NCBI GenBank assembly: GCA_036559195.1
Contig: DATBTN010000060.1
Span: forward strand, 1 to 64,000
Direction: 5' to 3'
Source of the DNA: Candidatus Baltobacteraceae bacterium
GTDB taxonomy: Bacteria > Vulcanimicrobiota > Vulcanimicrobiia > Vulcanimicrobiales > Vulcanimicrobiaceae
Length of the DNA: 64,000 nt
Part shown: one piece after another, positions 3,823-5,118 of the stretch
Numbering within the stretch: the first letter of the stretch is position 1
How the letters are laid out: every line of letters begins with the position of its first letter
The notes under the pieces: generated by a model
Databases searched by the model: none
What the model was told of the DNA's origin: nothing
What the model saw: only the letters and a program-made list of their open reading frames with translations
Program-made: the position numbers and the translations under genes

Positions 3823-3855
3823 TCCGCCGCCATACCTCGAATGAAGGAGGGTCCG

Positions 3856-4245
3856 ATGGGTCCACGCCTGATCATCACGGCCTTATGCGCCATCGGCCTC
3901 TACGCTTCCGTTTTCATGCTGCGCAAGACCCGGCGGGCCGAGCGCGGGCAACTCCGGGAGGCGAGCGTGGTGCAGACCAAACGCGCGCGGCTCTTCGGCG
4001 CGACGCCCAACGCACTCGTCGGCATCGCGTACTATCCGCTGATCGTGGCTGGGGTTTGGCTGCTCGGACCGCCCGCGTCGCTGCTGGTGCTGGCGGCCGC
4101 GCTCTTCGCCGCGGGCACGTCGTTCTATCTGGCGTACAGCCTGACGTTCGTCACCCGCATGAGCTGCTCGTATTGCTGGACCGCGCACGTGGTAAACTGG
4201 GCGCTCGCCGCCCTGCTTGCGTGGATCGCACGGAGCTGGGTATAA
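3856..4245 (+). CDS. VKOR-like (vitamin K epoxide reductase family) membrane protein
   Basis: A 129-aa protein with about four hydrophobic segments and the active-site pair C-S-Y-C in RMSCSYCWTAHVVNW. This matches VKOR enzymes, which reoxidise periplasmic thiol oxidoreductases using quinone. The usual loop cysteine pair near the N-terminus is not obvious, so electron relay may be incomplete. ATG 3856 is chosen over an in-frame ATG at 3841 because AGGAGG lies just before it and would be inside the gene otherwise. No DsbA-like partner is adjacent. The stop codon overlaps the TATAAT box of the next transcript. Confidence 0.75.
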   Translation: MGPRLIITALCAIGLYASVFMLRKTRRAERGQLREASVVQTKRARLFGATPNALVGIAYYPLIVAGVWLLGPPASLLVLAAALFAAGTSFYLAYSLTFVTRMSCSYCWTAHVVNWALAALLAWIARSWV

Positions 4246-4246
4246 T
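4217..4246 (+). promoter_or_regulatory. Sigma70-like promoter for the small transcript
   Basis: TTGCGT at 4217-4222, an 18-bp spacer, and a perfect TATAAT at 4241-4246, within the last codons of the VKOR-like gene. Initiation would be expected near 4253. It has no downstream protein gene on the same strand, which points to a short stand-alone RNA. Confidence 0.6.
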
Positions 4247-4295
4247 TTCGCTTGTCTCGAGAGAACAATCCTCACCGAGACCCGAGGAGGGCGGA

Positions 4296-4322
4296 ATGAC
4301 TCCGCAAGATCCACCTGGGTAG
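4296..4322 (+). CDS. Possible 8-codon micro-ORF inside the small transcript
   Basis: Reads MTPQDPPG then TAG. It is preceded by a perfect AGGAGG at 4285-4290 with 5 nt spacing to the ATG. The start codon lies in the loop of the GCGGA/TCCGC hairpin. A nested hairpin and terminator follow directly, as in leader-peptide attenuators, but no downstream gene shares the strand. It may be a translated micropeptide, a ribosome-binding decoy, or chance. Confidence 0.3.
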   Translation: MTPQDPPG

Positions 4323-4368
4323 ACTCCGCTGAAAACAGGTAGCTGAGCCTGCCGCTTCAGCGAATAGC

Positions 4369-4408
4369 AAAAAAACAGAGACCGCGCGAGTGCGCGGCCT
4401 CTGTTTTC
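4369..4408. terminator. Bidirectional intrinsic terminator
   Basis: Stem arms 4375-4387 and 4392-4404 are complementary over 13 positions with one A-C mismatch; the loop is GAGT. A run of A's precedes the stem (T-run for the leftward transcript), and TTTT follows it. It ends both the small transcript and the leftward gene at 4432-5118. Confidence 0.85.
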
Positions 4409-4431: not shown

Positions 4432-5118
4432 CTACATTTTCCCCGACATCATTTTGCCCTGGGCATTCAAATGATATGCGGAGGCGAGATCCTTCATCGC
4501 AGTCGTCAGAATCGCGTGATACTGCGCGTCGGCAGCGAGACCGAACTTCTTGTCGATATCTTTCATCACTTGAACGTGGATCGGATGTGAGACGGCGCGA
4601 TCGAGCATGACCTCGACGTTAAACCCGCTGCCGGTCTGACCGGCGGCCCACAAGGCGCCGGCGAGAGCTTCGCCGTTCTTCGGATCGGGATTCGGCGTCG
4701 AAGGCAGCTTTACGCCCTTATCGGTGGCGATTTCCAGCGAATCGGAAACGACGAAATCGAACGTCTTCAGGAATTGGCCGATTTGCGCGCTTCCGTATTG
4801 CTTCGTCAGCTTCGCGACTTCGGGTTTAAACGCGCTGCCCGCAAGCGTTTGCAGCAGGGTGACGGTGTTGAATTTGCTCGGGCCGCCGCCGGCTTCGACC
4901 ATCGAGAGCGTTACTGCAAGGGCGGGCGTTCCCGTATAGACGCCCGGGCCCGAGAAACGCGAGGGAGCGTTGGTGACGCCCGCCGACATTTTGGCGCCCA
5001 TCATGTGATGGGCGTTCATCTTGGCATGCATGCCGCCCATCGACTGGGCAGCACCGACGCCGGTCGCCAGCAAGGCCGTAACGGCCGCGACCGCGCCGAT
5101 TTTGTAAAACGTACTCAT
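4432..5118 (-). CDS. Exported protein of unknown function, Met/His-rich N-terminus
   Basis: A 228-aa protein with a signal peptide (MSTFYKIGAVAAVTALLATG, cleavage after GAAQS or nearby), followed by a Met/His-rich segment (GGMHAKMNAHHMMGAKM) that could bind copper or another metal. The rest is mostly helical and soluble. I do not recognise the family. ATG 5118 is chosen for its AAAGGA site 6 nt upstream and for the signal peptide; a longer in-frame extension to 5217 lacks these. It runs alone into the terminator at 4375-4404. Confidence 0.75.
   Translation of the reverse strand: MSTFYKIGAVAAVTALLATGVGAAQSMGGMHAKMNAHHMMGAKMSAGVTNAPSRFSGPGVYTGTPALAVTLSMVEAGGGPSKFNTVTLLQTLAGSAFKPEVAKLTKQYGSAQIGQFLKTFDFVVSDSLEIATDKGVKLPSTPNPDPKNGEALAGALWAAGQTGSGFNVEVMLDRAVSHPIHVQVMKDIDKKFGLAADAQYHAILTTAMKDLASAYHLNAQGKMMSGKM

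Follow-up and report, generated by a model that had tools for sequence, protein, structure and literature searches.

SgrS/SgrT is a dual-function small RNA. RyhB/RyhP is another (PMC5331693). In Sinorhizobium meliloti, the trp attenuator RNA rnTrpL and its 14-amino-acid leader peptide, peTrpL, act in trans (PMC7298713), and this pair offers, by analogy, the nearest known case of an attenuator RNA and its leader peptide that function apart from their operon. rnTrpL is part of a Trp attenuator that lies ahead of trpE, and it begins at its ATG. Pro-Pro-Gly (PPG) has been shown to stall ribosomes when EF-P is absent, and the pause sites described lie within long genes or reporters (PMC5021804).

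The locus reported here lies in the window, the 64,000-nucleotide stretch of DNA that was analysed, and the RNA predicted from it is a variant of the peptide-encoding small RNAs. Like SgrS/SgrT and RyhB/RyhP, it would be transcribed from its own promoter, end at its own terminator and encode a small peptide. However, mRNA targets are known or proposed for those two RNAs, while the frame in the window's family is mostly 8 to 22 codons long. As with rnTrpL/peTrpL, a short frame for a leader peptide lies on a small terminated RNA, which would work away from the next gene, and in both systems the RNA and the peptide are candidate active products (PMC7298713). In contrast to rnTrpL, the window RNA has no downstream target, carries a Shine-Dalgarno (SD) hairpin and has PPG instead of single-amino-acid codons, and its sequence is unrelated. 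The invariant Pro-Pro-Gly early in the frame recalls the EF-P-dependent sites, although pausing in the window's family is predicted from this motif. 6S RNA (RF00013) is likewise a single-copy, stand-alone RNA of roughly 150 to 230 nt; it was rejected, as its covariance model does not match the window RNA and gives weak candidates elsewhere in relatives.

The initial annotation had described positions 4217 to 4408 as a stand-alone structured transcript, and all of its elements were found there. The putative promoter (4217 to 4246, forward strand) consists of TTGCGT (4217 to 4222), an 18-nt spacer and TATAAT (4241 to 4246). It lies inside the 3′ end of a vitamin K epoxide reductase (VKOR) family gene (3841 to 4245, forward strand; Pfam PF07884), such that the −10 box overlaps the stop codon at 4243 to 4245. 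The positions of the −10 box and the terminator predict a transcript of ∼155 nt (4253 to 4408). Its predicted fold begins with a 5′ hairpin, GUCUCG...CGAGAC (4254 to 4281), followed by the SD sequence AGGAGGG (4285 to 4291), of which AGGAGG (4285 to 4290) is separated by 5 nt from the ATG at 4296 to 4298. The micro-ORF (4296 to 4322; ATG ACT CCG CAA GAT CCA CCT GGG TAG) encodes MTPQDPPG, and its UCCACC is predicted to pair with the SD sequence. The start codon is enclosed in a conserved module hairpin (4280 to 4320) with the stem GCGG (4291 to 4294)/CCGC (4302 to 4305) and an AAGAU bulge. A second hairpin, CGCUGAA...UUCAGCG (4327 to 4362; inner GGUAGCUGAGCCUGCC), precedes an intrinsic terminator (4372 to 4407) with an A-run before it and a T-run after it, which is probably bidirectional. 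The 181-nt fold has a z score of −4.0, and that of the terminator is −6.3. As had also been noted initially, the next gene is on the opposite strand: a hypothetical protein gene with a signal-like N terminus (about 4432 to 5112, reverse strand) lies convergent to the RNA. A Pfam search with its product gave no match. It appears to be a small exported protein, and comparable frames occupy the equal position in several genera.

By sequence, and by conservation of the promoter and terminator at this locus, the RNA appears to stand alone and not to be part of a longer mRNA. The exact promoter string occurs once in the window, and with up to two mismatches there are 3 matches versus 1.5 expected. 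Taken by itself, the promoter string is therefore weak and unconvincing, and the remaining evidence is comparative.

The core of the module, GGAGGGCG-loop-YCGCARGATCCNCC, was found, almost without exception as a single copy, in 83 of the 99 genomes from one family of Eremiobacterota (WPS-2), and the expectation from shuffles was 0.00. This bears out the conservation in related genomes on which the initial annotation had made its proposal depend, and recurrence across the family excludes chance for the core as a matter of sequence. BLAST against 60 genomes gave matches in 9 further genera of this family, each of them across window positions ∼4283 to 4334. The pattern GGAGGGCG-N-CGCAAGATCCACC was present in 40 of the 117 genomes of the class, every one in the window's family, while the reversed control gave 0 matches in the same 117 genomes. 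A covariance model of the module, trained on 45 copies, detected it at an E value of ≤0.05 in 82 of the 99 family genomes and in 0 of 50 others in the phylum; a copy in one further genome (G003; E = 0.19), yet clearly real by eye, raises the 82 to 83. One copy (L247, in genome G015) looks degenerate or spurious and was excluded from the counts. The module is seemingly absent from some g19 genomes and from G012, G022 and G088; therefore, it is not essential.

Among 84,980 species scanned, the true matches were records of Eremiobacterota/WPS-2/Vulcanimicrobiota, unnamed bacteria and two apparently misnamed metagenome-assembled genomes. Matches in other phyla were rejected, as they fall within long open frames and lack the stem. 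None of the viral contigs searched carries the module. The initial annotation could not match the RNA to a known class, and Rfam 15 likewise returned no family at or above the gathering threshold for the window and its relatives. The look-alikes Leu_leader and STnc320, seen at gathering or relaxed thresholds, were set aside as terminator-like only, and a likeness between GGTAGCTGAGCCTGCCG and part of the c-di-GMP-I riboswitch was dropped, as Rfam gave no score for it. As far as Rfam and the literature searched show, the RNA family is undescribed.

The comparative evidence extends to the structure of the module. In the start-codon stem, pair 14-23 is G-C in 29, A-U in 10 and G-U in 6 of the 45 copies. 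GCGG/CCGC is replaced by GCGA/UCGC in several genera and by GCAG/CTGC in g19; GCGAA/TTCGC and longer stems occur in other genera. Compensatory stem changes, proposed initially as a check, are therefore present in the module stem. None of the 500 shuffles and none of the slid versions reached the covariation score of the real alignment or its number of cells with both stem arms changed. As shuffles do not remove relatedness, this covariation is support and not proof; on the aligned sequences, the module hairpin around the start codon covaries and is real. For the copies beside rimP (see below), the RNAalifold structure has GG-A-GGG base-paired with U-CC-N-CC, which joins the ribosome site to the codons of residues 5 to 7. 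With regard to an antiterminator/terminator switch, the folds predicted in these copies comprise local hairpins only. Outside the module, copies of types B, C and D have related TCTCGAGA/CCTCGAGG palindromes where the window has its 5′ hairpin. The helix of the second hairpin slides between genera, so column-wise covariation is unusable there.

The micro-ORF itself shows constraint on its coding frame. From a common start position the peptide reads M-x-(P/S/L)-Q-(D/N/S/T)-P-P-G, after which come tails of 0 to about 14 residues and, in a few copies, longer ones. The window frame, with its stop directly after Gly8, is the shortest version among the copies. In 80 nonredundant copies, a stop codon occurs within 16 codons after residue 5 in 75 copies in frame 0, compared with 20 and 23 copies in the other frames. 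The start position holds TTG in 69 of these copies, ATG in 3, GTG and CTG in 1 each and another codon in 6, and TAA, TAG and TGA stop codons number 38, 32 and 15. Pro6, Pro7 and Gly8 are invariant across 58 distinct 27-nt sequences, with three values at each wobble base. Codons 4 to 8 show 12 distinct substitutions, of which 8 are synonymous when read in frame 0 and only 2 and 1 when read in the other frames. The three-base conservation pattern of codons 5 to 8 overlaps in part with the SD pairing predicted there. As the mismatch in GGAGGG/UCC-N-CC sits on a wobble base, part of the codon periodicity may reflect RNA structure, which does not account for the start and stop pattern. Overall, the alignments indicate that the frame is under selection and the peptide conserved, and we infer that the micro-ORF is translated.

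Copies L044, L050, L249 and L268 carry ATA, ACG, ATT or ATC at the start position, with the downstream frame and stop intact. Tandem frames occur in g9, g20 and g30, where the first encodes QDPPG and the second (Q/E)DPPK...S-stop, such that the second has PPK instead of the PPG motif. The second micro-ORF (L066 to L071, L090 and L091) has its own GGAGGG about 108 to 126 nt past the first module and in most copies encodes M..(Q/E)DPPK(D/E)xxS-stop.

Copies of the module occupy three neighborhoods: before rimP-nusA-infB, beside a dehydrogenase E1 gene and, as in the window, behind VKOR. The commonest site (type A, about 20 genera) is upstream of rimP-nusA-infB, with ylxR/rnpM before infB. By sequence, each of these copies has a promoter and a terminator to itself and is laid out apart from the rimP operon. 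The 3′ arm of their terminator holds TTGCGG, 18 nt ahead of a TATCCT-like box and fitting as a −35 element, and a separate rimP leader hairpin, GCGTGGGN5CCCGCGC, follows the RNA terminator and the promoter-like box. Genomes with copies elsewhere keep the rimP promoter-like box and leader hairpin with the RNA absent there, and in two g19 genomes the RNA is gone and the terminator/−35 region remains. A role as leader of rimP-nusA-infB was rejected, as rimP has this box and leader to itself and other copies lie at different loci. Across the family (L118 to L132, including L119), the rimP operon leader contains the conserved hairpin GAAGCGTGGGN5CCCGCGCTTC and is another leader candidate. Several type A promoters (L061, L062, L063, L074 and L041) carry the inverted repeat CCGAC-N4-GTCGG between the −35 and −10 boxes, possibly an operator, which is absent from the window copy. 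The window genome has a second module copy of type A (C57:147504; L052, G000:C57:143504-151532, around position 4001), and no other genome seen carries the module at the rimP locus as well as the VKOR locus. Type B copies are divergent from the dehydrogenase E1 gene or near lepA, and what lies downstream of them varies, with amtB and a gene for a TetR-type regulator as examples. Types C and D, which include the window copy, lie behind RNase D-VTT(-VKOR) genes.

A survey of the VKOR gene in the 99 genomes revealed that many genera carry a promoter-hairpin-terminator unit at this site, usually without the mini-ORF. TTGAGT/TTGCGA-like −35 and TANNAT −10 boxes are kept on the 3′ side of VKOR in other genera, as is a terminator-like stem topped by CGCGAGTGCG. 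The unit in g26 keeps TATAAT, CTTGTCTCGAGAG and an inner GGGAGCTGAGYCTACCG (window, GGTAGCTGAGCCTGCCG) and has no mini-ORF, which gives the module the look of an addition to a small RNA. The inner second-hairpin motif of g26 is common to g29 and g5, with inner AGCTGAGNCTNCCGC kept at the VKOR locus in all three. From these comparisons, the window transcript looks like a VKOR-locus small RNA to which the micro-ORF module was added or from which others have lost it. Behind VKOR in L293, L294, L303, L299 and L312, the small-RNA-like unit has a hairpin with GTAGCGTTAGTTCTAC, CCGG-GAACGGCAG and a terminator topped by CGCGAGTGCG. Rfam gave no match to this widespread VKOR 3′ unit.

We favor, at a probability of roughly one half, a stand-alone small RNA in which an SD-hairpin micro-ORF with a PPG pause motif gates activity in trans. 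The conserved micro-ORF module would form the 5′ half of the small RNA gene, with GGAGGG masked by the frame's own UCC-N-CC codons and the start codon in a hairpin loop. An initiating ribosome would open the SD helix, the peptide would reach Pro-Pro-Gly at residues 6 to 8 and end a few codons later, and the PPG pause would hold the ribosome over the module. Ribosome entry and pausing could then switch how the RNA folds, how exposed it is or how long it lasts, and the 3′ hairpins of the RNA would act in trans on putative targets and not as an attenuator of the gene behind. Three roles had been offered in the initial annotation: dual-function small RNA, micropeptide gene and trans-acting riboregulator. 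The stand-alone layout, conserved peptide, compensatory hairpin, unconserved downstream gene and lack of an Rfam match support this in outline, and sequence alone does not settle the choice among the three.

The peptide itself may instead be the effector, the RNA being a very small mRNA for M-x-(P/S)-Q-D-P-P-G..., acting in trans as peTrpL does in Sinorhizobium. The constraint on Q-x-P-P-G at the peptide level and the tandem frames of g9, g20 and g30 are consistent with this, as is the 14-amino-acid leader peptide that works in trans elsewhere (PMC7298713). However, the C-terminal tails vary in sequence and length, from none in the window to about 14 residues, residue 5 varies (D/N/S/T), and the type B near-cognate starts would yield little peptide. 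The conserved sequestration of the SD sequence by the frame also suggests that regulated translation matters, and we consider a peptide effector rather unlikely. The same type B codons (ATA, ATT, ATC and ACG), of the near-cognate kind that IF3 discriminates against, make initiation sensing a second possibility: the SD/start hairpin, with its nearly invariant GGAGGG, could capture 30S subunits as a decoy or read initiation fidelity. As near-cognate starts are few and a decoy would not need a peptide conserved up to Gly8, this seems improbable.

An equally improbable reading, a cis-acting leader-peptide attenuator in which micro-ORF pausing sets terminator read-through into a downstream gene, draws on the leader-peptide anatomy and on the position of most copies directly before rimP-nusA-rnpM-infB. 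In the window, however, the next gene is convergent and no same-strand gene directly follows, and the rimP operon's own promoter-like box and leader hairpin persist in genomes without the RNA there. Downstream genes differ among loci and are unconserved, so a cis attenuator is unlikely; with a copy number of about one and a varying location, so is any cis effect on one downstream gene. The weakness of the promoter string by itself could suggest a chance arrangement or an ordinary VKOR gene 3′-end region, but the conserved module, frame and locus contradict this, and we give it almost no weight. A trans effect is the simplest reading, and the RNA probably acts on its own.

Taken together, the data describe a family-wide predicted RNA, from a phylum that has hardly been studied, whose very short frame shows demonstrable selection on its peptide. 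More tentatively, it may represent a new Eremiobacterota RNA family in which an SD-folded micro-ORF serves as a portable translation sensor (of EF-P/PPG pausing or start-codon fidelity) plugged into trans-regulating small RNAs. As it resembles an attenuator that has departed from its operon, it could be used to test the evolution of leader-peptide modules into free small RNAs, as well as the use of polyproline pausing or initiation fidelity as a trans sensor.
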